This document shows positions 23,209 through 34,917 of a DNA stretch of 64,000 nucleotides, in pieces. The stretch lies in contig JABFRR010000003.1 in assembly GCA_013141065.1 (NCBI GenBank), positions 186,001 to 250,000 on the forward strand, written 5' to 3'. Each line of letters begins with the position of its first letter. Positions within the stretch are counted from its first letter, which is position 1. This stretch comes from Bacteriovoracaceae bacterium (lineage in GTDB: Bacteria; Bdellovibrionota; Bacteriovoracia; Bacteriovoracales; Bacteriovoracaceae). Made by a program: the position numbers and the translations under genes. The notes beneath the pieces are model-generated. The model worked only from the letters and a program-made list of their open reading frames with translations, was not told where the DNA came from and searched no databases.

Positions 23209-23469
23209 CTACAAATAAGAAACTCTGAAGCTTTGCGAGAAGCTATTTTTGAATATTTCAGAGAGATTAATTTGGCACGAAAGGTAATATTTTTTATCTT
23301 GCCAAATAATACACTTTTGACAAATTCCTTCACCGTTACAACTAGATGCTATATTGATTTTATGTTCTAATAGAAAACTCATTAGGCTTTGATTGAGTTC
23401 TTCTTGGTTTAACTTTATTGATAGAACTTTTTTTTGAGATGCTCCACCATAAATTATAAGCTCATACAT
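23209..23469 (-). CDS. 2Fe-2S ferredoxin-like protein
   Basis: 86 residues from ATG 23469, whose A is the last base of the upstream TAA stop (TAATG), so translation is probably coupled. Four Cys in the pattern SSCNGEGICQKC (Cys44, 50, 53) plus YLSC (Cys65) give the C-x5-C-x2-C...C cluster site typical of 2Fe-2S domains in NqrF-type and related proteins. The beta-grasp sequence before it (YELIIYGG...NQSLMSFLLEHKI) fits. Partner enzymes are unknown; the upstream gene is a lipoprotein of unknown function. Confidence 0.7.
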   Translation of the reverse strand: MYELIIYGGASQKKVLSIKLNQEELNQSLMSFLLEHKINIASSCNGEGICQKCIIWQDKKYYLSCQINLSEIFKNSFSQSFRVSYL

Positions 23470-24816
23470 TATTTGCACCAAAGTCTTGATGGGCTTCGCT
23501 CATCTATTACTAAGGTCCTATGCAATGTCTTCTGAGTTTTATTCTCAAATGTTGCTTCTCCAAAAATATTTCCGAGGGCTTCAACATGATAAATGGGAAA
23601 GTTCATGGAAAGAAAAAAATCTAGTTGTGATTTCCGTCCTCGTTTAGATTCATAGAGAATACGGTCAGGACCTTTAAGGAATAGGTGTCTAGAAAAACTC
23701 AAAATTTCATTGAGTCCTTGAGCTGATTCAACCTTGCTTATGTCATAAGAAATCAAATGTTGAAAGTGCTGAAGCGGATTTTTCCCATTTGTAGAAAAAA
23801 GGTTTACGTTTTGGTTTTGACCTCTAAACTGACAAGTTGGAAGTGGAAGTCTTGGAGTCATAATCTGAAAAAAAGTTTGAAAGTCTCTTGAAGGGCGTAG
23901 TGGGCGTTGTAAAATTGATGAGCCAACTGCTAGGAATGTATTTTTATTTTCCATAAATGCCACTGTGTGAGACTTTAATTCATCTCTCATTTGATCATTA
24001 TGAAGTATCTTTTGATCTAAGTTTATATCGTAGTTGCATTCAATGGTAGAGGAAGGAAGTAAATCATTTGAAGAAATTTTATAAAATGGAAGTGGAGTTT
24101 GACTATATTGAGAAAAGTTGTTCATTTTTAATTTCAAATATGTATCTAGAATACTTTTAAAGGAAAGAGATTTAAATGTTTCATATTTTGTAATAATTTC
24201 ATCACCCTTAAAAAACTGAGAAACAAAATTCTCACTTTGACTCAATTCTTTTTGATTTTCTTTCAAAAACATTTCTAAATCATTACTAACAACATTATCA
24301 CTTGTTGAATCTTGATCTAAGTCTCTTGCTAAATTATTTAGCGTGTTTTGGGGATTAAACATTTTCATTAAATAATCTAGGCCCATCAGGTATGGCATGG
24401 TTTCAGGGCCTTCAAAATTTTTAGGTATAAAATCAAAATAATAATTTTGATTATTGATTTTTAGATAAATTTGTAAACGAGAGTTGGGAGAAAGTAAGTC
24501 CGGACGTCTTTTCATCTCGATGAGGGAGAGAATGACGGATTTTTCTATAAAGGAATAGGTTTTTTGGGCAAGTAGATTTTTCTTAAAATTGAGATGAAAT
24601 TTTTGTATATTTTCATCTTCGCTAGATAATTGATAGTTTGATTCACTTGGGCAGAAATTATTTTTAGCAACAATATTTTGTGAAATATTCAGGTCTTTTT
24701 TTTTTTTGTAAATCAATTTCAGTTTGATTAAAAAAATTTTCTAATTTATTTGAAACTGTTGAGCAACTTGAAAGTAAAAATATTCCCAATAATAGGAAAA
24801 GAGACTTTTCATTCAT
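23469..24816 (-). CDS. Large lipoprotein gene interrupted by a frameshift in a 12-A run
   Basis: The main frame (24716 to 23469, 415 codons) has no convincing start: its first codons are just the A-run read as IYKKKK. Upstream, in another frame, ATG 24816 begins a good lipoprotein signal (MNEKSLFLLLGIFLLSSCST, lipobox LSSC, Cys 18) that reads into the same A-run and stops soon after it. Removing one A (or adding two) joins the two into one lipoprotein of about 448 residues. Later sequence (TPRLPLPTCQFRGQ, FLKGPDRILYESKRGRK) matches no family I know. The start overlaps the upstream gene by 8 nt; the ferredoxin follows by TAATG. Confidence 0.6.
24696..24707 (-). repeat. A12 homopolymer within a coding region
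   Basis: Twelve T on the given strand, twelve A on the coding strand, between GATTTAC and GACCTG, exactly where the lipoprotein gene changes frame. Runs of this length slip during replication, transcription and sequencing. Confidence 0.95.
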
Positions 24817-25174
24817 TAGCCTGATCATCTATATAATAAAGACCTTCAACTTCTGGTCCAGAAAGTGTTTGACCTTTGAGTTGAAGATTTTGGAAATCAT
24901 CTATATTTAAATTTTCAGCTTCTTGGCAAGTCGCCTGAACCAAGCAAATTATCCACATTCCTGAGTGTTTGTCTCCAGTAGATGCTTGAGTTGTAATGCT
25001 TTTGACCTCGTAGCCTTTATTAATAAATTCGAAAAATAGCTTATCGAAATGTTTCTCTCTATAGCCTGATGATCTGGCCGGTGGTGAAGGGACGAAATAG
25101 GTAAATGTTTGCATTTTAAAGCGATTCGGGGCTTTAAAGAGATTTTTAAAGGCAGTGCTTAGTCGATTTAGCAT
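24809..25174 (-). CDS. Hypothetical protein
   Basis: 121 residues with no signal peptide. It reads MLNRLSTAFKNLFKAPNRFK, then a beta-rich middle (MQTFTYFVPSPPARSSGYR, KGYEVKSITTQAS, MWIICLVQA) and an acidic tail. The N-terminal basic/amphipathic helix could touch a membrane. It is the first gene of a four-gene minus-strand group (this gene, the frameshifted lipoprotein, ferredoxin, exonuclease), and overlaps the lipoprotein start by 8 nt. TAGGA lies about 9 nt before the ATG. Family not recognised. Confidence 0.6.
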   Translation of the reverse strand: MLNRLSTAFKNLFKAPNRFKMQTFTYFVPSPPARSSGYREKHFDKLFFEFINKGYEVKSITTQASTGDKHSGMWIICLVQATCQEAENLNIDDFQNLQLKGQTLSGPEVEGLYYIDDQANE

Positions 25175-25292: not shown

Positions 25293-25362
25293 GAGATAGG
25301 ATGTCTTCTTACTAGTGGCAGGATGCCAAAAAAAATGGGGCCTTTGCAGGGGGCCCCTTTTT
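25293..25362 (+). ncRNA. Candidate short RNA ending at a terminator
   Basis: Two back-to-back TATAAT hexamers (25276-25287), the first 17 nt after TTCAAC (25253-25258), would start a transcript near 25288-25294. About 70 nt later a GC-rich hairpin followed by TTTTTATTT ends it. In between are an SD-like AGGAGATAGG and a four-codon ATG-TAG frame only, and a small GGCA/TGCC hairpin. It lies between a divergent gene start and the scoB stop, so the hairpin could instead serve only the minus strand. Confidence 0.3.
25328..25362. terminator. Bidirectional intrinsic terminator after scoB
   Basis: GGGGCC (25337-25342) pairs with GGCCCC (25352-25357). On the minus strand the stem is followed by eight T, five nt after the scoB stop, so it ends the thrS-to-scoB unit. 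On the plus strand it is followed by TTTTTATTT and could end a short transcript. Confidence 0.85.
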
Positions 25363-25996
25363 ATTTCTGATCTTTTTCGAGTAAATTTTCTTCAATCTTT
25401 AAATCTGAAATTGAAATACCATTTGCAAGTTTTATTATCTTAAATTGAGTACCTGTAGGCTTGAAAATTCCGAATTCTGTAACAACAATATCTACGACTT
25501 CTTTTCCTGTTAATGGCAAAACACATTTTTTTAGTAATTTCGCAATACCGTCTTTACTGAAATGATTCATCATTATGATTACTTGTTTGGATCCATTCAC
25601 TAGATCCATTGCCCCACCCATGCCAGTGACTTTTTTACCAGGTACCATCCAATTAGCAAGGCTTCTTTCTGCATCTACTTCCATTCCACCTAAAACACAG
25701 TAGTCTATATGGCCACCACGAATCATTCCAAAACTAAGTGCGCTATCAAAATAACTTGCTCCAGCACCGATTGCGATTGTCTCTTTTCCTGCATTTATGA
25801 GTGTGGGCGAAACATTTTCTTTTTTCGGACGACCACTAACTCCAAGAACTCCATTTTCTGAATGAATCATAATATTTAATTTTGCAGGAATTCTCTCTGC
25901 GATTATTGTGGGCATTCCAATTCCGAGATTTACAGATGAGTGTGGTTTAAAAAAACGAATTATCTCATCCGCCATTTGTTCATTTGACCAACTCAT
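25361..25996 (-). CDS. scoB: 3-oxoacid CoA-transferase subunit B
   Basis: 211 residues. VNLGIGMPTIIAERIP, the catalytic-Glu motif SENGVLG, GAGASYFDSALSFGMIRGGHID and GAMDLVNGSKQVIIMM identify the beta subunit of the family that includes ScoB, AtoA and B. subtilis YodR. The Glu forms the acyl-CoA thioester intermediate. It is adjacent to the alpha subunit gene (1-nt separation of stop and start) and is the last gene of the minus-strand unit. The CoA acceptor is set by context; here a beta-amino or keto acid from lysine is suggested rather than acetoacetate. Confidence 0.92.
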   Translation of the reverse strand: MSWSNEQMADEIIRFFKPHSSVNLGIGMPTIIAERIPAKLNIMIHSENGVLGVSGRPKKENVSPTLINAGKETIAIGAGASYFDSALSFGMIRGGHIDYCVLGGMEVDAERSLANWMVPGKKVTGMGGAMDLVNGSKQVIIMMNHFSKDGIAKLLKKCVLPLTGKEVVDIVVTEFGIFKPTGTQFKIIKLANGISISDLKIEENLLEKDQK

Positions 25997-26716
25997 TTAT
26001 GACTCCTTTTGGATAGCTAAAAATTCTATGTCATTTTTGTAGTTACTACCTTGGAATATTCTTTGTACAAAAATTCCAGGCAAATGAATATCTTCGGGGG
26101 GAATTTCACCGCATTCTACAAGTTCCTCAACTTCGACGACTGTAATTTTTGCGGCCATAGCCATTAACGGTGAAAAATTACGTGCAGTTTCTTTAAACCA
26201 TAAATTCCCAAAGGTATCACCTTTTTGTGCTTTGATTATGGCGAAATCGGCGTGTAGTGCAGTCTCTAGAATGCAGGGGCGATCAAATATTTTAACGTCT
26301 TTGCCTTCGGCGATCAATGTTCCGTAACCTGTTGGTGTATAAAAAGCTCGAATACCTAGTCCGGCCGCTCGAATGCGTTCAGAAAATGTTCCTTGCGGAA
26401 CGAGTTCTACAACAATTTGTTTATTTAACATTCGGGTTTCTAAATCTGGATTACCACCGACGTATGAACAATAAGCTTTTTTTATCTTGTCTTGAACGAG
26501 AATTTTGACCAGTCCTCTTCCAGAGTTGCCAATATTATTGGAAATGACAGTAAGGTCTTTGACGTCAATTAAAGTGAGCGCATCGATACAATTTTCTGCA
26601 ATTCCACAAAGGCCAAAACCTCCACTCATGAGGGTCATGCCTGATTTTAGGTCGCTAAGTGCAGAATGAGCATCTTGGTAAACTTTTGGAAAATCTTTTA
26701 CTTCTATATTTTTCAT
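25997..26716 (-). CDS. scoA: 3-oxoacid CoA-transferase subunit A
   Basis: 239 residues. The alpha-subunit CoA-binding loop TLMSGGFGLCGIAENCIDAL, then VISNNIGNSGRGLVKIL, YVGGNPDLETRMLN and LVPQGTFSERIRAAGLGI AFYTPTGYGTLIAEGK match ScoA/AtoD/YodS. The ATG shares its A with the TAA of the preceding aminotransferase gene (TAATG), pointing to coupled translation and a common pathway. It works with ScoB as an alpha2-beta2 enzyme. Confidence 0.92.
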   Translation of the reverse strand: MKNIEVKDFPKVYQDAHSALSDLKSGMTLMSGGFGLCGIAENCIDALTLIDVKDLTVISNNIGNSGRGLVKILVQDKIKKAYCSYVGGNPDLETRMLNKQIVVELVPQGTFSERIRAAGLGIRAFYTPTGYGTLIAEGKDVKIFDRPCILETALHADFAIIKAQKGDTFGNLWFKETARNFSPLMAMAAKITVVEVEELVECGEIPPEDIHLPGIFVQRIFQGSNYKNDIEFLAIQKES

Positions 26717-27903
26717 TAACTATTTTCCTTAATAACAGCGTAGACATTATTCATTGCTTCACTTAGTTCTGTTTCATTTATAATAAGTGGAGGAGCGAGA
26801 ATTATTCTTGTCGGTTGGGACACAAGATAGAGTCCTTTTTGATAAAATTGACTCCATGGAATTGGTGCCGATAGTTCAACAGCTGCCAGCATTCCTTTGA
26901 CTCTTACTTCTTTAACATTCTTTAGGTTCGATATTTCATTAAGTCTTTGTTTAAAAAGTTCAACACATACTTTAAGATTTTTTTGGAAAAATTTGTCTTT
27001 AACAATTTCAAGTACCCCTTTTAGGGCGGCCATACCTAAGGGGTGAGCATAATTGGTAAGTCCACAGGAAAGAATATTTTCTTCATAATAATTTGCAATT
27101 TTTTCGTTAGTCCATAAGGCGCCAAAGGGAATCATCCCACCTGTAATACCTTTTGCTAAACAAATCATATCAGGTGAAACATCGTAGTGCATATATCCAA
27201 ACGCTTTTCCAGTTCTTTCAAACCCACAGACGACTTCGTCCATAATGAGCATAATATTTGATTCTCTACAAATTGTACTTATACCATCCCACCATTCTTG
27301 AGTCCCATAATAGACTCCATTACCACCGGTGATCGTTTCAATGATGATGGCCGCTATATTTTGTGGGCCCACGTCTTTAACGATTCTTCTCGTTTTTATG
27401 ATTGCGTCTGTTTCATCTGGCTCAGGAATTCGAACAACCCAATTCTCAGGTAATTGATGACCAGCGTTTCTCCAGTCACCAGTGGCCGCGAGAGAGCCCA
27501 TGGTTGCACCATGGTAAGAAGTTTTTCGGGCGAGAACAATTTTCTTTTTTGTTATGTCACGAGCGATCTTTAGAGCATTTTCAATTGTTTCAGATCCACC
27601 AGAAGTGTAAAAAATTTTTCCCTCCGGTTTTTCCATGTAATTGAGTAATTCTTGTGTCGTTTCATTTTTTCCTGGATAAATTCCTTTAGGGGAAGCCATC
27701 GGAATTGAGTCTAATTGATCTTTAATATTTTTAATAAGCACTGGATGATTATGACCAAAATGTGCCTGGTAACTTATCGACGTCATGTCTGTTAATGTTA
27801 GGCCATCAGAAGTTTTAATTTTTACCCCAGAAACAGACTCAATAGAAAAGACTGTGGCATCTTTTTGTTTCGACCATGAAATATAATAGGGGAGGGTGTT
27901 CAT
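26716..27903 (-). CDS. Class III aminotransferase (YodT-like position)
   Basis: 395 residues from ATG 27903, chosen because AAGGA lies 10 nt upstream; the open frame extends 37 codons further into the previous gene without a ribosome site. Motifs: FGHNHP, FYTSGGSETIENALKIAR, SYHGATMGSLAATG, the cofactor Asp in LIMDEVVCGFERTG and the PLP Lys in CLAKGITGGMIPFGA. The N-terminus LPYYISWSKQ recalls taurine/beta-alanine-pyruvate aminotransferases, which act on terminal or beta-amino groups. It is followed by scoA (TAATG) and preceded by the C45 hydrolase gene (10 nt), equivalent to yodT next to yodRS in Bacillus. Confidence 0.88.
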   Translation of the reverse strand: MNTLPYYISWSKQKDATVFSIESVSGVKIKTSDGLTLTDMTSISYQAHFGHNHPVLIKNIKDQLDSIPMASPKGIYPGKNETTQELLNYMEKPEGKIFYTSGGSETIENALKIARDITKKKIVLARKTSYHGATMGSLAATGDWRNAGHQLPENWVVRIPEPDETDAIIKTRRIVKDVGPQNIAAIIIETITGGNGVYYGTQEWWDGISTICRESNIMLIMDEVVCGFERTGKAFGYMHYDVSPDMICLAKGITGGMIPFGALWTNEKIANYYEENILSCGLTNYAHPLGMAALKGVLEIVKDKFFQKNLKVCVELFKQRLNEISNLKNVKEVRVKGMLAAVELSAPIPWSQFYQKGLYLVSQPTRIILAPPLIINETELSEAMNNVYAVIKENS

Positions 27904-27913
27904 TGTGTTTTCC

Positions 27914-29011
27914 TTAATGCATTTTTTTAAAATCATGTCCATCATTGAAAAATTCATGTTCAATATAATCTTTGTCGTGAGCGGGACATCCTCTCCAGAA
28001 AATATGATGACCACGATCTAAATCACTCACTCCACCGCCACAAGTGAAAGAAGGATCTTGGGCTCCACTTTCAAAGTGTGAACAAATAGATTTCGGGTAT
28101 TCATCATGGTCAGTTAAAAGGTTTTTGAAGTCTTCTAGATCAGAAACTTTATAGGATTTCTTAGAAAGTAAATTCCAGCGATTATGCGTAGTGGAACTTT
28201 GTGAAGATTTATCTTCAAGTTTTATGACTTCTGGGCCCATACAGTGATTAGTATGGAATATACTTCCAACTTGTCCAATTTGTAGTGCTGAAACTTTCTC
28301 CCAAACACCGGGAGTGATCTCTAAATGCTCACCACCTTCGGGTGTTGAAATTAAGTAGTTGTGTCCTGATGTAACAGGAGCGCTTAGTAGAGTTTGTCTC
28401 ATATTTGCAAGGTTTTTTTGTTCGAGAGTTTTTCTGACTAATAATGGCCAAATTAAACCCGCTTTAGCATTGGTCGTATTAATGTTGTTGACGCCTATTA
28501 GATTATTATCGGTGCTCACACCCATCAGACCGACACATCCGACCAAAGTTAGCACAAGTTGAGCCGAGTGATTATTATTGGCGGGGATATGAATTATGGA
28601 CATGTAGTTTTTTGCAGATCGATGCATATCCCATGTTTGACCTGATAAAACTTTTGAGGGTGTTTGAATGTGTATTGTTGAGCAGCCTTCATCAGGTAAA
28701 ATGATATCTCTGAAATCAGTATAGTTATTAAGAATAACTAAGTCTGTGAGAGTTAATCCGGCACCATGAGCTATTCCCTCAATCTCGCTTGCAATATGTG
28801 GGGCATAAGTCTTTGAGATCTCAAATTGCTTAAAAGCTAGTTCATCAAGTTTTTTTGAAAGCTTTGGGTTTTTTGCCAGCATAAGCTCTCGTCTAATTTG
28901 GGTTAGCTCTGAAATTGCTTTTTTGAATTCTTCACCATGTTGAAGCCCCCATTCATAATTTGTTTTTCCGCTTTTATACTGAATATAAGGAAAATTACAA
29001 TTTGTACTCAT
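27914..29011 (-). CDS. C45 family Ntn-hydrolase (acyl-CoA:6-APA acyltransferase-like)
   Basis: 365 residues from ATG 29011 (AAGGAG about 12 nt upstream), overlapping the fusion gene by ATGA. Features of the family: GLQHGEEFKKAI near the N-terminus, IASEIEGIAHGAGLTLTDLVILNNYTDF, then DEGCSTI, where Cys110 would become the N-terminal nucleophile after self-cleavage (as Cys103 in penicillin acyltransferase), followed by GQTWDMH and VGCVGLMGVSTDNNLIGVNNIN. Members hydrolyse or transfer acyl groups on amines. In this operon it may remove the acyl group put on by the GNAT domain, the job proposed for YodQ in Bacillus. Confidence 0.8.
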   Translation of the reverse strand: MSTNCNFPYIQYKSGKTNYEWGLQHGEEFKKAISELTQIRRELMLAKNPKLSKKLDELAFKQFEISKTYAPHIASEIEGIAHGAGLTLTDLVILNNYTDFRDIILPDEGCSTIHIQTPSKVLSGQTWDMHRSAKNYMSIIHIPANNNHSAQLVLTLVGCVGLMGVSTDNNLIGVNNINTTNAKAGLIWPLLVRKTLEQKNLANMRQTLLSAPVTSGHNYLISTPEGGEHLEITPGVWEKVSALQIGQVGSIFHTNHCMGPEVIKLEDKSSQSSTTHNRWNLLSKKSYKVSDLEDFKNLLTDHDEYPKSICSHFESGAQDPSFTCGGGVSDLDRGHHIFWRGCPAHDKDYIEHEFFNDGHDFKKMH

Positions 29012-32000
29012 GATTTTAAATACTCCTTCATCGCATCGAAACTTGGACAAACTATGTAGAGACCACAATGCTGAATAAACATTTTACTAATAGAGTTTGG
29101 AATAGATCCTTTAAAGTAACCAAATCCATTTTCAATTTTAATGACATCCATATCATAGGTGGAGAGTTTATCGATTAATTTGGCGTGAAAGGCTTTTGCC
29201 GTTTTTTTATACTCATCTGAATTCTTTATTACATTTTTAAAAGACTCATAATAACTCAAGAAATGAAACTCATCTCCATCCCATGTACTAATCATCATTA
29301 GTGGCTGTTCTAGAAAATATTTAGTTGATGTAAAAGCTAATCCAGATTGACCAGACATATAGATGAGTCCAGCATCAGGTGATATTCCTGGTAAAGCTGA
29401 AGCCAAAAATGACTTCTCACTATATCTGTAAAATTGCGAAGCCGTTTCATTGTAAACAAGGGCGACGTTATATCGACTTGCAAGTTTTCTTAGTTCAATA
29501 AGAAAATCCATTGGAACTTTTTCCATCGTCTTTTGAAGAACGGGTTCTATCCACACTGCCAAGTATTCTTCTTTTTTCATCTCGGCTTCAACTAATGACA
29601 AAACTTCTTGGTAATTATTGACATTAGGATGGGGAAGTTTAGTTGAATTGAAATATCCATCTTGAGTATAACTTAATGAGCGAGCTAACATCGATCCATT
29701 TCCGAAAAAATGATTAGTGAACGTTAACATTTTGTTAATATTTTTTTCGCGAAGACTTGCTTCTGATTTTACCCAAATTGCTTTGGCAACTTTATCTGTA
29801 GCTTCAGATTGGCCAGAAGTTGTATAACCATGACGAAGATCTTCGGGAAGTACAGTTAAAAAATCTTTTACACCACTTAAAAATGCTTCACTTACAAAGT
29901 TTGAAAGACAAACTTTATTAATAAGATAAGGGAGCTGTAAATCAAAGTAATCATGGTTGAGGCTTTCAATAGACAGAGGAATTGTCGTTCCCCTACTTAA
30001 ATGAATGGTTGGTTTTTTCCAATCAACTTTAGTGGTGTAATAAAAAACATCACGATGGTCTTCAAAGTCAGGATAGTCTTCGAGCATATAGTTTTGCTCG
30101 ATTGCCCCAAGGGACAAGTTAATGTTGATCATTGCACCTGCTAGTCGATCACGATTTCGGCCTTGTATTCGTTTAATTCCTTTAATTATGGCCATTGTCG
30201 AAAGGGCGTACTTGAGGTTGCGGCCAAGTCCCGTTTTTTGTAAAGATGGATCTATCGTTACATCGAGCATGTAAAGTGAGTCATGATCTTTAAAATGAGG
30301 GTCCATGCGTACACCTCTCTCGAGAGGGTAAAGACCTAAAGGGCCGGCAAAAGCGATTGCCATTAATTTCTTTTTTCTATTTACAAGGCCCAAGCAAATG
30401 GCATTTTTATCTAAAACGGTATGTTCAAATTTTTCGATGTCAGTTTGTCTCGCTGGTTCATAAACGTTTTTTTGTAGATTTATAATGCTGTCGCGAAATT
30501 CTAAAAAATTAGAAGCATTTATTTCGATGAGCTCGACCTGTAGCGCTTCTACACTTTTATTTAAAAGTTGGTTTATGCTTTCAAAAACAGCTGTCGCTTC
30601 AATTTTTTTGCCAAAGACTTTGGCCAGCTTGGTTTTGAGCATTAGCTCATGCCACTGATAAATTTCAGCACTACCTAGGTTATCAGTTTCGGCATGAGTG
30701 GGAAGAGGCAACTCAACCTTTAAAAATAGTTCTGAGCAAATAGCGTCTAAGCGATCAAATAAGAAATCAAAATCTTTAGTTCCAAAAGCAGTATTTAAAC
30801 GAAAACGCAATGTTTGGCTTCCGGCAGGATAGTAGAGAAGTCCATGTTTAAATCTTAGGTCAACAAATTTATTCAATAGTCCAGGATCGATCACATCAAA
30901 AGCGAAAGCCATACCATTTATTCGAGGGCGTCTGATAAATTCTGGATATTTTTTAATTAATGCCTCAACTCTTGGCCCAACTTGACTTTCGAGATCCCAA
31001 ATGCGTGATTGGCACTGATCTAAACTAATCGCATGAGCATATCCTCTAAAAAATGAGGCAACAGAAAATTCTTCACCATAAAAGATTTTTTTAGTTTCAT
31101 GGTGTGAAAGAACCAAACCGACTTGTGATTTTTTTGCACAAACGACGTAATCCGGATTTAATTGTTCACCACTAAGCCCCTTCATTTTTAACTGACGATG
31201 CCAAAAAAATTCTCTCCCTAAATGAAAGCCGGTTTGGACTTCGTCGTGAATGACTGGAACTTTGAACGTTTTTGCCATCAATAAAAGTGCTGTATGAAAT
31301 CTATCGGAAGAATAGCAATCTCCACCTTCACATTGCATAGGTTCAATTAAGACAGCAAATATATTTTTTGATAAGAGTTGTTCTCTAACTGATAAAAGAA
31401 CATCAACTTCTTTTTTTATCATCAGATCTTCAGACCAACTAGTTGGTACTTTGAAATTTTTAAGTGAAGCTTCATTCCAGGTCTCGCGCCAGTCTTTGGG
31501 AAATTTTACGTTGATTTTGCTGTCATCTAGCTCTGGATACTTCACATACTCTGCTAAGTAATTTTTCCATTCAAATGGTTCACGTTTACTTTTATTCCAA
31601 GTGGCCGCGAGAGTGACCATCATTCGACCATGAAATGAACCTTCAAAAGCAAGAACTTTATTTGCTGTCGGATTCACTCGTTTTTGATAACAGTATCCTA
31701 ACGCAACTTCATTAGCTTCCGCACCAGAGTGTGTTGTTGTGATAAAAGTTTTTGACCAGTTTAACTTTCGCCCTAAAAAATTGACAAATGCTTGCCTAGC
31801 TTCTTTAAATTCTTTAGTGGTCGAATCATTTATCCAGCTTTCTAAGAATTGTGCTGATCCAAAAAAAACGGACGGATTGAATCCGTGGCCAAGAGTTGCA
31901 ATTTGTGAAGCTGCATCTAGAAGGTAATGAGTTTCTCCACTTGAAGATTCGATGGCCATATAAGGCCCGACAGAATCTTTGAGTTTTGTCAGATAGGTTT

Positions 32001-32094
32001 TTTTCTCTGCCGGAATCATATTTCCAGCATAGTATTTTTTTAGTGTCTCAAGACCTGCTGCTGCATCTTGAGCATTAATTATTGGAAGTTTCAT
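29008..32094 (-). CDS. Three-part fusion: lysine-6-aminotransferase-like, GNAT, inactive aminotransferase-like
   Basis: 1,028 residues. Part 1 (about 20-460) is a complete class III aminotransferase: THSGAEANEVALGY, FEGSFHGRMMVTLAATWN, EPMQCEGGD, VIHDEVQTGF (Asp284) and VVCAKKSQVG (PLP Lys321); the EGGD and KKxQV forms resemble L-lysine 6-aminotransferase. Part 2 (about 515-695) is a GNAT acetyltransferase with LDVTIDPSLQKTGLGRNL as its acetyl-CoA loop. Part 3 (about 700-1028) follows the aminotransferase pattern again (SGQSEATDKVA, VWIEPVLQK, LVYNETASQFYRYS) but has Asn882 for the cofactor Asp and no Lys (IYMSGQSG). AAGGAT lies 7 nt upstream of ATG. ddl ends 18 nt before it. Confidence 0.8.
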   Translation of the reverse strand: MKLPIINAQDAAAGLETLKKYYAGNMIPAEKKTYLTKLKDSVGPYMAIESSSGETHYLLDAASQIATLGHGFNPSVFFGSAQFLESWINDSTTKEFKEARQAFVNFLGRKLNWSKTFITTTHSGAEANEVALGYCYQKRVNPTANKVLAFEGSFHGRMMVTLAATWNKSKREPFEWKNYLAEYVKYPELDDSKINVKFPKDWRETWNEASLKNFKVPTSWSEDLMIKKEVDVLLSVREQLLSKNIFAVLIEPMQCEGGDCYSSDRFHTALLLMAKTFKVPVIHDEVQTGFHLGREFFWHRQLKMKGLSGEQLNPDYVVCAKKSQVGLVLSHHETKKIFYGEEFSVASFFRGYAHAISLDQCQSRIWDLESQVGPRVEALIKKYPEFIRRPRINGMAFAFDVIDPGLLNKFVDLRFKHGLLYYPAGSQTLRFRLNTAFGTKDFDFLFDRLDAICSELFLKVELPLPTHAETDNLGSAEIYQWHELMLKTKLAKVFGKKIEATAVFESINQLLNKSVEALQVELIEINASNFLEFRDSIINLQKNVYEPARQTDIEKFEHTVLDKNAICLGLVNRKKKLMAIAFAGPLGLYPLERGVRMDPHFKDHDSLYMLDVTIDPSLQKTGLGRNLKYALSTMAIIKGIKRIQGRNRDRLAGAMININLSLGAIEQNYMLEDYPDFEDHRDVFYYTTKVDWKKPTIHLSRGTTIPLSIESLNHDYFDLQLPYLINKVCLSNFVSEAFLSGVKDFLTVLPEDLRHGYTTSGQSEATDKVAKAIWVKSEASLREKNINKMLTFTNHFFGNGSMLARSLSYTQDGYFNSTKLPHPNVNNYQEVLSLVEAEMKKEEYLAVWIEPVLQKTMEKVPMDFLIELRKLASRYNVALVYNETASQFYRYSEKSFLASALPGISPDAGLIYMSGQSGLAFTSTKYFLEQPLMMISTWDGDEFHFLSYYESFKNVIKNSDEYKKTAKAFHAKLIDKLSTYDMDVIKIENGFGYFKGSIPNSISKMFIQHCGLYIVCPSFDAMKEYLKS

Positions 32095-32112: not shown

Positions 32113-33135
32113 TTACAATATGTCTTTTTTAACAATATTTCCTAGGAACTTTAAATAAGAGTGTCCATTGTTTTCCATCATTTTGGGAAACATTGATATC
32201 GGCGTGGCCCCTGGAAAAGTGTTAATCTCGTTAAGTAAAATCTCACCATCATCGGTAAAGAAAAAATCGATTCGAGAAAGGTGACGAAGCTTTAATGCTT
32301 TAAAAGCTTTGATTGCATAGTCTTGCATTAACTTGACTGTCTCCCTAGATAAACCGGGGGCAACAATTTCGGTTGTTGTTTTACTGTTGGGATTATATTT
32401 TTCTTCATACGAATAAAATTTACTTGGACAACTAATTTCTCCAGGCAAGCTTGCATGGATAGTGCCTTCAAATTCATAGGTAGAGATTTCAAGTTCTCGA
32501 GCGTTCACCATTTTTTCCACAAGCACGTATTCTGAATAAGAAAAAGCCTTCTTGAGGGAAGTCTCTAATTCATCTTTTTTAAATACTTGATAGCAACCGA
32601 CACTTGAACCTTGTGAGGCAGCCTTGACAAAAACTTTTCCATACTTTGCAAAGAGTTCATGCGCTTTAGGAGATTCTTCTAAACTGGTTAAAAAGACAAA
32701 GGGTGTATTAGGAATATCAAGAGCATTAAACCAGAGTTTACTTGTGACTTTATTAAAGGCAATTAAACTTGCTTCAGGGCCACAACCTAAATAGGGAAGT
32801 GAAATCAAATCGAGATAGGTTTGAATTTCCCCCGTTTCACCAGGAGGCCCGTGAATACAAGGAACAACATAGTGAAGATCACAAAGTATTTCATTGTTAG
32901 AGACGAGTTGTCGTTTAAAATTTATTTCAACTGTTTTGCCATTATAAGCAGGCAAGTTTGAATCGATAATTCTGAAAACTTTGTCACTTGATTGAGGCTT
33001 TCCTATTTCGACTTTATAAATATTCAAATCGCCAATTTCAAGTAAGTTTTTTTCTAGATATTTTGCTGAGACCAACGAGACTTCGTGTTCCGTTCCACTT
33101 CCTCCACAAAGAAGAAGTACATTTTTTTTTGTCAT
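32113..33135 (-). CDS. ddl: D-alanine-D-alanine ligase
   Basis: 340 residues, in the Ddl size range. ATP-grasp features: LCGGSGTEHEVSLVSA, CIHGPPGETGEIQTYLDL, YLGCGPEASLIAFNKVTSK, KAASQGSSVGCYQV, VLVEKMVNARELEIS, and the metal-binding LSRIDFFFTDDGEILLNEINTFPGATPIS. It joins two D-Ala for peptidoglycan precursors. It lies 33 nt after thrS and 18 nt before the fusion gene with no terminator between, so it appears in one unit with the lysine-type genes. A ligase for another D-amino acid or dipeptide is possible but not indicated. Confidence 0.9.
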   Translation of the reverse strand: MTKKNVLLLCGGSGTEHEVSLVSAKYLEKNLLEIGDLNIYKVEIGKPQSSDKVFRIIDSNLPAYNGKTVEINFKRQLVSNNEILCDLHYVVPCIHGPPGETGEIQTYLDLISLPYLGCGPEASLIAFNKVTSKLWFNALDIPNTPFVFLTSLEESPKAHELFAKYGKVFVKAASQGSSVGCYQVFKKDELETSLKKAFSYSEYVLVEKMVNARELEISTYEFEGTIHASLPGEISCPSKFYSYEEKYNPNSKTTTEIVAPGLSRETVKLMQDYAIKAFKALKLRHLSRIDFFFTDDGEILLNEINTFPGATPISMFPKMMENNGHSYLKFLGNIVKKDIL

Positions 33136-33168: not shown

Positions 33169-34917
33169 TTATCTCAATTTTGCTGGCATTCTTTCCAAGT
33201 GAAGTTTAGTAAACATTTCTTTTAACTCCACAATACTTAGTGTTTTCGATCCTGCTTCGCCATAGCCTCTAATACTCACTGATTTATTCTCCATCTCTCT
33301 ATCACCAATGACGAGCATAAATGGAGTTTTTGATTGCTGAATCTGTCTGGTTTTATATCCCATTGTTTCATTTCTATCATCGACTTTGACTCGAAAACCT
33401 AACTCTTTGAGCTCTAATGCCAATGCACGTGAGAACTCAAGATGTTTATCTGTAGACACCGGTACAACGACGGCTTGCTCGGGCGATAACCAAAAGGGAA
33501 AAATTCCAGCGATATGTTCAAGATAGACACCTATGAATCTTTCAAGTGATCCCAAAAGTGCACGGTGAATAACGACAGGTCTAACATCCTGGCCTTCTTG
33601 ATTTGTATATTTTAAATCGAAACGATCAGGCAACTGGAAATCGAGTTGGATTGTTCCTAGTTGATGCCATCTTCCGATTGCATCAGCAATTTGAATATCT
33701 ATTTTCGGCCCATAAAACGCGCCATCTCCAGCATTAATTTGGTAAGCATGGCCTGATTTATCGAGAGCTCCTTGAAGGGCTTTTTCAGCGATATCCCAAG
33801 TTGCATCATCTCCTGCTTTTGATTCCGGCCTAGTCGATAGTCCAATTTTGATTTGATTAAAGCCGAAGTGGTCATAGCAAATGAAAAACATTTCCATTAA
33901 TTTAATAATCTCAGCTTCTATACCTTCAAGTGAAATAAAAATATGAGCGTCATCTTGGCAAAAAGAGCGCACTCTAGTGAGTCCTGCAACCGCCCCCGCA
34001 CTTTCATAACGGTGTAAGCGACCAAAATCAGCATAGCGCATTGGAAGGTCACGGTATGAATATTTATAGTGTTTAAACATCAACATGTGACAAGGACAAT
34101 TCATGGGCTTTAAGGCAAATTCTTTTTTGTCGACTTGAGAAAAATACATGTTTTCTTTGTAGTGCGCATAGTGCCCAGATGTATGCCATAAATCAGAATC
34201 TAGTAGCATGGGAGTGATGACTTCATCATATCCATACTTAACATAAATTCTTCTCATGAAAGCGACTAGTTCGTTATAAACAGTTGTCCCTTTTGGCATA
34301 AAAAATGGTGAAGCGGGAGCGACTGACTCAAAATGGAAAAGCTCTTGTTCTTTACCCAGTTTTCGATGGTCGCGCTTTTTAGCTTCTTCTAAAAAGATCA
34401 TGTGGTCTTCGAGTTGCTTTTTAGTTGTGAAACTTACCGCATAAATTCTTTGCAACATTTTATTATTAGAATCCCCCTTCCAGTAAGCACCGGCAGTGTG
34501 AAGGAGTTTAAAAAATTTAGGAAGATGCCCTGTATTTTCGACGTGAGGGCCTCGGCACAAGTCGACGAATTCACCTTGTTCATAACAAGAAATTTCTTGG
34601 TCTACTGGAATTCCTTCGACAACTTCTACTTTGAGTGGTTGATCTTTCTTTTTCCAAAATTCGATATTTTCATCTCTTGAAAAAACCAGTCGTTTGATTG
34701 CGTGTTTTTCATCAATTATCTCATGCATGACTTTTTCTATTTTTTCTAAGTCTTCATCGAGAATTTTTGTATCGAGATCAATGTCATAGTAAAATCCATT
34801 TTCAATGACTGGGCCTATGCCAAATTGAGGATTTTGTGTTTTATAAATTCTTGAAATAGCATGGGCCATTAAGTGAGCAGTTGAATGTCGTATAGTGTCT
34901 AAGTCGTATTTGGCCAT
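33169..34917 (-). CDS. thrS: Threonyl-tRNA synthetase lacking the N-terminal TGS domain
   Basis: 582 residues against about 640 in E. coli. It starts directly at the editing domain (RHSTAHLMAHAI, with the HxxxH metal site; YYDIDL; CRGPHV), followed by the class II core (MKPMNCPCHMLMFKH, RYADFGRLHRYESAGAVAGLTRVRSFCQDDAHIF, RPVVIHRALLGSLERF) and the C-terminal anticodon-binding domain. The TGS domain is absent, and no upstream open frame could supply it; GGAGA six nt before ATG 34917 fixes the start. Editing and zinc-binding residues look intact. It is the first gene of the long minus-strand unit. Confidence 0.95.
   Translation of the reverse strand: MAKYDLDTIRHSTAHLMAHAISRIYKTQNPQFGIGPVIENGFYYDIDLDTKILDEDLEKIEKVMHEIIDEKHAIKRLVFSRDENIEFWKKKDQPLKVEVVEGIPVDQEISCYEQGEFVDLCRGPHVENTGHLPKFFKLLHTAGAYWKGDSNNKMLQRIYAVSFTTKKQLEDHMIFLEEAKKRDHRKLGKEQELFHFESVAPASPFFMPKGTTVYNELVAFMRRIYVKYGYDEVITPMLLDSDLWHTSGHYAHYKENMYFSQVDKKEFALKPMNCPCHMLMFKHYKYSYRDLPMRYADFGRLHRYESAGAVAGLTRVRSFCQDDAHIFISLEGIEAEIIKLMEMFFICYDHFGFNQIKIGLSTRPESKAGDDATWDIAEKALQGALDKSGHAYQINAGDGAFYGPKIDIQIADAIGRWHQLGTIQLDFQLPDRFDLKYTNQEGQDVRPVVIHRALLGSLERFIGVYLEHIAGIFPFWLSPEQAVVVPVSTDKHLEFSRALALELKELGFRVKVDDRNETMGYKTRQIQQSKTPFMLVIGDREMENKSVSIRGYGEAGSKTLSIVELKEMFTKLHLERMPAKLR

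Follow-up and report, generated by a model that had tools for sequence, protein, structure and literature searches.

Our analysis concerns five consecutive minus-strand genes, here called FUS, C45, AT3, CTA and CTB, which occupy positions 25361-32094 of a 64,000-nt stretch of DNA (in the following "the window") from contig JABFRR010000003.1 of a Bacteriovoracaceae bacterium. The reading we favour, with somewhat better than even confidence, is that this cluster encodes a catabolic pathway for beta-lysine that follows the logic of the arginine succinyltransferase (AST) pathway, and that FUS carries a composite pyridoxal phosphate (PLP) site. We regard the wider claim as evenly poised, namely that the cluster represents a new lysine route via N3-acyl-beta-lysine and 3-aminoadipate to 3-oxoadipyl-CoA, with a single-chain pseudo-heterodimer megaenzyme (aldehyde dehydrogenase-aminotransferase-GNAT-pseudoaminotransferase) common to Bacteriovoracales, Myxococcota and Pirellulales. 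No description of the FUS cluster was found in the literature searched.

FUS comprises three domains, as identified by Pfam/NCBIfam and alignments. Residues ~1-455 form a class III aminotransferase (AT1, with Asp284 and Lys321), residues ~515-695 a diverged GNAT acyltransferase domain and residues ~700-1028 a second, degenerate class III aminotransferase (AT2). The preliminary description of this DNA had recognised the aminotransferase-GNAT fusion and had missed AT2, which reaches 23.7 bits in Pfam for the single sequence and whose fold is seen in a profile match to solved structures (PDB; E = 2e-18). Lys321 and Asp284 of AT1 are invariant in 46 homologues from three phyla. In AT2 of the same homologues the PLP Asp is replaced by N, V or S and the Lys region reads GGQ, while a near-invariant STWDGD motif (FUS positions 936-941) falls, in the alignment, on the loop that reads GGTYAGN/GTTFGGN in PuuE and ArgD. 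In class III enzymes a loop of this type binds the PLP phosphate of the partner subunit in the dimer; AT1 carries RG(Y) at this place. Since STWDGD of AT2 aligns with an inter-subunit loop that is absent from AT1, the simplest inference from the alignments is that both domains pair within the one chain as a pseudo-dimer and share a single composite PLP site. In the dimer geometry we envisage, Lys321 and Asp284 would be supplied by AT1 and the phosphate-binding STWDGD loop by AT2.

The AlphaFold2 model of single-chain FUS is of high confidence (pLDDT 93.5, pTM 0.94), and its aminotransferase fold is closest to lysine 6-aminotransferase and gamma-aminobutyrate (GABA) aminotransferase (Foldseek). 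AT1 shares fold and catalytic residues with these enzymes (lysine 6-aminotransferase: Rv3290c), and the AT2 loop corresponds to their inter-subunit PLP-phosphate loop. These are homodimers with two sites, whereas FUS holds an intact and a degenerate copy in one chain, and each copy lacks elements that are present in the other. Serine palmitoyltransferase LCB1/LCB2 likewise pairs a catalytic with a non-catalytic partner of PLP fold-type I, but it belongs to another subfamily, consists of two chains and lacks an inserted acyltransferase domain. FUS would be a rare and testable case among class III aminotransferases, in which the dimer partner has become an inactive part of the same polypeptide and an acyltransferase lies between the two.

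The cluster recurs at about 60 loci in Bacteriovoracales, Myxococcota and Pirellulales. FUS is present in 33 of the 192 genomes of the phylum (Bdellovibrionota), and a scan of named genomes added Halobacteriovorax, Bacteriovorax, members of the Pirellulales and numerous Myxococcota, Nannocystis and Enhygromyxa among them. When homologous clusters were sought in other Bdellovibrionota, as the preliminary description had proposed, the order FUS-C45-AT3-CTA-CTB turned up in nearly every complete Bacteriovoracales locus, and it can therefore not be a product of chance. C45, AT3, CTA and CTB also stand behind FUS in many Myxococcota loci, in some of which CTB was not found beside CTA. Because the five-gene set recurs across three groups, the cluster is, judged by its distribution, a genuine pathway.

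That no kamA-like gene is present, as had been stated earlier, is true within the window. A search of the genome identified a 450-aa protein of the KamA (lysine 2,3-aminomutase) family outside the window and unlinked to the cluster (L039), with 254 bits against TIGR00238 (cut-off 199.2); its best specific model is lysine 2,3-aminomutase (290 bits). The equivalents of the cluster Cys, R134, D293, D330 and K337 of the clostridial lysine 2,3-aminomutase 2A5H are kept in all aligned FUS-associated orthologues. No paper giving the roles of the Asp pair was found in the literature searched. Within the family of the window's genome, a KamA orthologue (64-85% identity) is found in 28 of 29 genomes with FUS and in none of the 21 without it (Fisher p = 3e-13, uncorrected for shared ancestry); counted by genus, the figures are 13/13 versus 0/15 (p = 3e-8). 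Of the 33 genomes with FUS that were reached through the named-contig scan, most of them from other phyla, 28 have a clear KamA (49-66% identity). In three Pirellulales/Planctomycetaceae genomes KamA directly follows CTA, either inside FUS-C45-AT3-CTA-KamA (L123 and L165) or as CTA-KamA (L273). KamA thus tracks the cluster and is operonic in Pirellulales, so that beta-lysine is, on genomic grounds, the most likely substrate. The earlier proposal that lysine enters through the N-terminal aminotransferase without KamA was rejected as the leading reading because KamA is present in the genome and co-occurs with FUS. In Myxococcota the neighbours of KamA include no conserved partner, and, as a caution, DNA related to kamA is also present in genomes of this phylum in which no FUS was detected (at most five candidates per genome were scored in the FUS search there). 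Directly behind the unlinked kamA lies a gene for a predicted peptidase-like protein with a weak MpaA match (L039:2766-3755).

The family assignments of the remaining enzymes fit a degradative route. C45 scores 153.9 bits against NF040521 (cut-off 85) and matches PDB 2x1d (E = 1.7e-18); its Cys110, which follows a conserved Gly, is kept in 84 of 84 homologues. AT3 reaches 256 bits with PF00202, and its closest solved relative is a taurine:2-oxoglutarate aminotransferase (PDB 6jix, E = 4e-51); the PLP Lys and the Asp are each found in 72 of 72 homologues. CTA (240.7 bits, TIGR02429, cut-off 128.5) and CTB (258.6 bits, TIGR02428, cut-off 243.55, Glu of SENG in 58/58 homologues) have succinyl-CoA:3-ketoacid CoA-transferases as closest solved structures, the family model covering 3-oxoadipate and acetoacetate enzymes alike. 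Between genera CTA is mostly 70-92% conserved; FUS, C45 and AT3 only 38-80%. In two genomes CTA and CTB are fused into one 466-aa protein (L134:13625-15025, L274:1226-2626).

At least 14 Myxococcota proteins carry an aldehyde dehydrogenase joined in frame to the FUS N-terminus (open reading frames of 1445-1811 aa), and in four more loci this enzyme is a separate neighbour of FUS. The best model for the fused or linked enzyme is AstD, the succinylglutamate-semialdehyde dehydrogenase, although full-length domains stay under its cut-off (TIGR03240, 310-393 versus 579); the catalytic motifs are intact in L139 and L166. AstD takes an N-acyl amino semialdehyde as its substrate. A single chain with GNAT, omega-aminotransferase and AstD-like dehydrogenase would, together with a deacylase, follow AST logic, and it is the fusion of the AstD-like enzyme to FUS in Myxococcota that argues for an AST-like order. 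Three genomes (G006, G022 and G087) keep the FUS-C45 pair alone, without CoA-transferase and without a KamA orthologue. FUS and C45 therefore look like a self-contained module that acylates, transaminates, oxidises and deacylates, which fits the AST-like and not the yod order. The divergent FUS proteins of these genomes (L068, L069 and L070; 1085-1099 aa, with an extra ~100 aa at the N-terminus) probably act on a different substrate; the neighbours of the pair there (MutL, MiaA, DUF1275 and others) are uninformative.

From domains, residues, fusion, linkage and co-occurrence we infer the following sequence of substrates and steps. The unlinked KamA would convert L-lysine to beta-lysine, and the GNAT domain of FUS would acylate (probably acetylate) the 3-amino group, the acceptor nitrogen being chosen by the logic of the route; N3 acylation would prevent cyclisation of the later aldehyde. 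AT1 would then transaminate the 6-amino group to the semialdehyde, and the AstD-like dehydrogenase, FUS-fused in many Myxococcota and presumably a separate protein in the window's genome, would yield 3-acylaminoadipate. Deacylation by C45 would give 3-aminoadipate, transamination by AT3 3-oxoadipate, activation by CTA/CTB 3-oxoadipyl-CoA and thiolytic cleavage succinyl-CoA plus acetyl-CoA. The conserved diamino-acid catabolic set proposed in the preliminary description, in the order acetylate, transaminate, deacetylate and CoA-activate, is thereby retained, and the co-occurring, in Pirellulales operonic, KamA would tie it to beta-lysine. In G155 a thiolase is encoded behind AT3-CTA/B.

Several observations weigh against this pathway. 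The 290 bits of KamA lie far under the AblA equivalog cut-off of 525, its co-occurrence with FUS in the family follows lineages instead of many independent events, and 4 of the 33 genomes with FUS in the named-contig scan are without a clear KamA orthologue. The GNAT domain has diverged too far for its acceptor to be named: it matched no NCBIfam acetyltransferase model at 0.1, none was among the 25 best matches listed for whole FUS, and profile searches of the region against solved structures gave general GNAT matches only, all weak. No dedicated aldehyde dehydrogenase is tied to the cluster in Bacteriovoracales, and the AstD-like enzyme of the window's genome also occurs in genomes without FUS. 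No dedicated thiolase is tied to it in the window's family either; a PcaF-like thiolase was rejected as a specific marker, as it sits in a paa-like operon and is also found in some genomes without FUS. The phylogenetic profile of the AstD-like dehydrogenase in the phylum proved uninformative as a marker, with homologues in genomes with and without FUS alike. A phenylacetate-like operon of the window's genome lies outside the window on contig C9 (L261:5247-14791) and comprises a PaaA-like oxygenase subunit, PaaG- and PaaF-like enoyl-CoA hydratases, a split PaaH-like dehydrogenase, a PcaF/PaaJ-like thiolase and an aldehyde dehydrogenase; it also holds a hydrolase and an unfamiliar protein of 420 aa.

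Second in rank behind the AST-like route, and rather unlikely in our view, is a Barker/yod-type route through GABA. Here KamA would again form beta-lysine, GNAT would acetylate N6, AT3 would produce 6-acetamido-3-oxohexanoate, CTA/CTB and a thiolase would lead to 4-acetamidobutyryl-CoA, C45 would free GABA and AT1 would act as GABA transaminase. The activities match those of B. subtilis kamA-yodPQRST and of the Pseudomonas beta-lysine pathway, the latter also with two different transaminases; AT1 is as similar to GABA aminotransferase as to lysine 6-aminotransferase, and relatives of C45 act on acyl-CoA and amides. The fused or adjacent dehydrogenase, however, is AstD-like and not like succinate-semialdehyde dehydrogenase, GNAT matches no NCBIfam acetyltransferase model and would share its chain with the enzyme of the final step and not with that of an adjacent one, and the FUS-C45 pair persists without KamA and CoA-transferase, where N6-acetylation on the way to GABA would be pointless. 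The same three genomes, and the resemblance of the dehydrogenase to AstD, would suit an AST-like module for an alpha-diamino acid (N2-acylated lysine or ornithine to 2-aminoadipate or glutamate), with KamA and CoA-transferase serving a parallel route. We hold this to be improbable: AT3 and the 3-oxoacid CoA-transferase share the operon across phyla, KamA joins them in Pirellulales, and a 3-oxoacid CoA-transferase requires a beta-keto acid. Biosynthesis of an acetylated beta-amino acid, be it a natural product or a compatible solute such as N-acetyl-beta-lysine, has a precedent in methanogens, which make the osmolyte N6-acetyl-beta-lysine with KamA and an acetyltransferase, but is very improbable given that two transaminases, aldehyde dehydrogenase, CoA-transferase, linked thiolase and deacylase are all degradative.

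How the cluster relates to the known systems can be told part by part. With kamA-yodPQRST and the Barker pathway of Pseudomonas it has in common a KamA-type entry and, one each, a GNAT, a deacylase, a class III aminotransferase (AT3, a candidate counterpart of YodT) and a 3-oxoacid CoA-transferase A/B. The entry enzyme belongs to the same family by score and conserved Asp pair, and the CoA-transferase subunits agree with YodS/YodR at family level, both above cut-off. The NCBIfam search of the GNAT domain at 0.1, in contrast, returned no YodP/AblB-type beta-lysine N6-acetyltransferase, and deacylation would fall to a C45 Ntn hydrolase, whereas YodQ is metal-dependent; on this other fold the preliminary description was right. 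Further differences are the fusion of GNAT to an extra active and a pseudo aminotransferase, the AstD-like dehydrogenase fused in relatives, the proposed N3 acylation and the proposed end at 3-oxoadipyl-CoA. The earlier picture of a yod route built from different parts consequently stands for the shared activities and is doubtful as a route, since the unmatched GNAT, the other deacylase fold and the AstD-like fusion fit the AST-like order better. For the B. subtilis system itself, lysine 2,3-aminomutase activity of KamA has been shown in vitro, while the roles of KamA and YodT were listed as open in a 2019 survey (PMC6522883).

With the AST arginine pathway (AstA, AstC, AstD, AstE) the cluster would share acylation of the carboxyl-side amine, transamination of the omega-amine, oxidation and deacylation, along with a class III aminotransferase and an AstD-like dehydrogenase. 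In place of an AstA acyltransferase and an AstE desuccinylase it has a GNAT without family match and a C45 hydrolase, that is, enzymes of other families, with up to three steps per chain; the substrate would be beta-lysine instead of arginine and the route would run further, by way of a beta-keto acid to a CoA ester. As the searches for the yod acetyltransferase and deacylase came out negative, the cluster appears partly yod-like (entry and CoA activation), AST-like in the middle and a member of neither system. If the proposed pathway is true, an undescribed lysine breakdown route enters the end reactions of the beta-ketoadipate pathway without aromatic chemistry, and a KamA subfamily gains a physiological role in predatory bacteria and myxobacteria living on prey protein. 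FUS-type fusions may allow channelling across three to four consecutive reactions.

Table 1. Features of the cluster and its upstream neighbours (window coordinates).
Feature	Position	Strand	Evidence
FUS, 1028-aa fusion	29008..32094	-	Pfam/NCBIfam, alignments of AT1 and AT2, profile searches, AlphaFold2, Foldseek
C45, Ntn hydrolase of the autoproteolytic C45 family with nucleophile Cys110 (in DEGCST); putative deacylase of N-acyl-beta-amino acids	27914..29011	-	NF040521, PDB 2x1d, homologue alignment
AT3, class III aminotransferase encoded on its own, putative beta-amino transaminase	26716..27903	-	PF00202, PDB 6jix, Lys and Asp invariant
CTA, 3-oxoacid CoA-transferase subunit A (pcaI/scoA family)	25997..26716	-	TIGR02429
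CTB, 3-oxoacid CoA-transferase subunit B (pcaJ/scoB family), catalytic Glu in SENG	25361..25996	-	TIGR02428, Glu 58/58
Intrinsic terminator-like hairpin and T run behind CTB	25330..25360	-	sequence; consensus scan gave hairpin on + strand
ddl (D-Ala-D-Ala ligase), conserved upstream neighbour	32113-33135	-	18-nt gap to FUS, synteny
thrS, conserved upstream neighbour	33169-34917	-	synteny

All five reading frames are intact and ordered FUS-C45-AT3-CTA-CTB in the window, and the arrangement given in the preliminary description, five consecutive genes with close junctions and a terminator, was confirmed: FUS and C45 overlap by ATGA, C45 and AT3 are 10 nt apart, AT3 and CTA meet in TAATG, and CTA and CTB in TAAATG with zero gap. 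Downstream of CTB stands GGGGCCCCCTGCAAAGGCCCCATTTTTTTT. Because ddl ends 18 nt before FUS, thrS and ddl probably make up, from gene spacing, the first part of the operon transcript; they stand outside the pathway. Both genes lie next to FUS in most Bacteriovoracales loci, and none were seen beside it in the Myxococcota and Pirellulales loci examined. Behind the operon (window 23209-25174) follow open reading frames for a ferredoxin-like, a 415-aa and a 121-aa protein, the latter two without a match in a Pfam search; they occupy the same place in many Bacteriovoracales.

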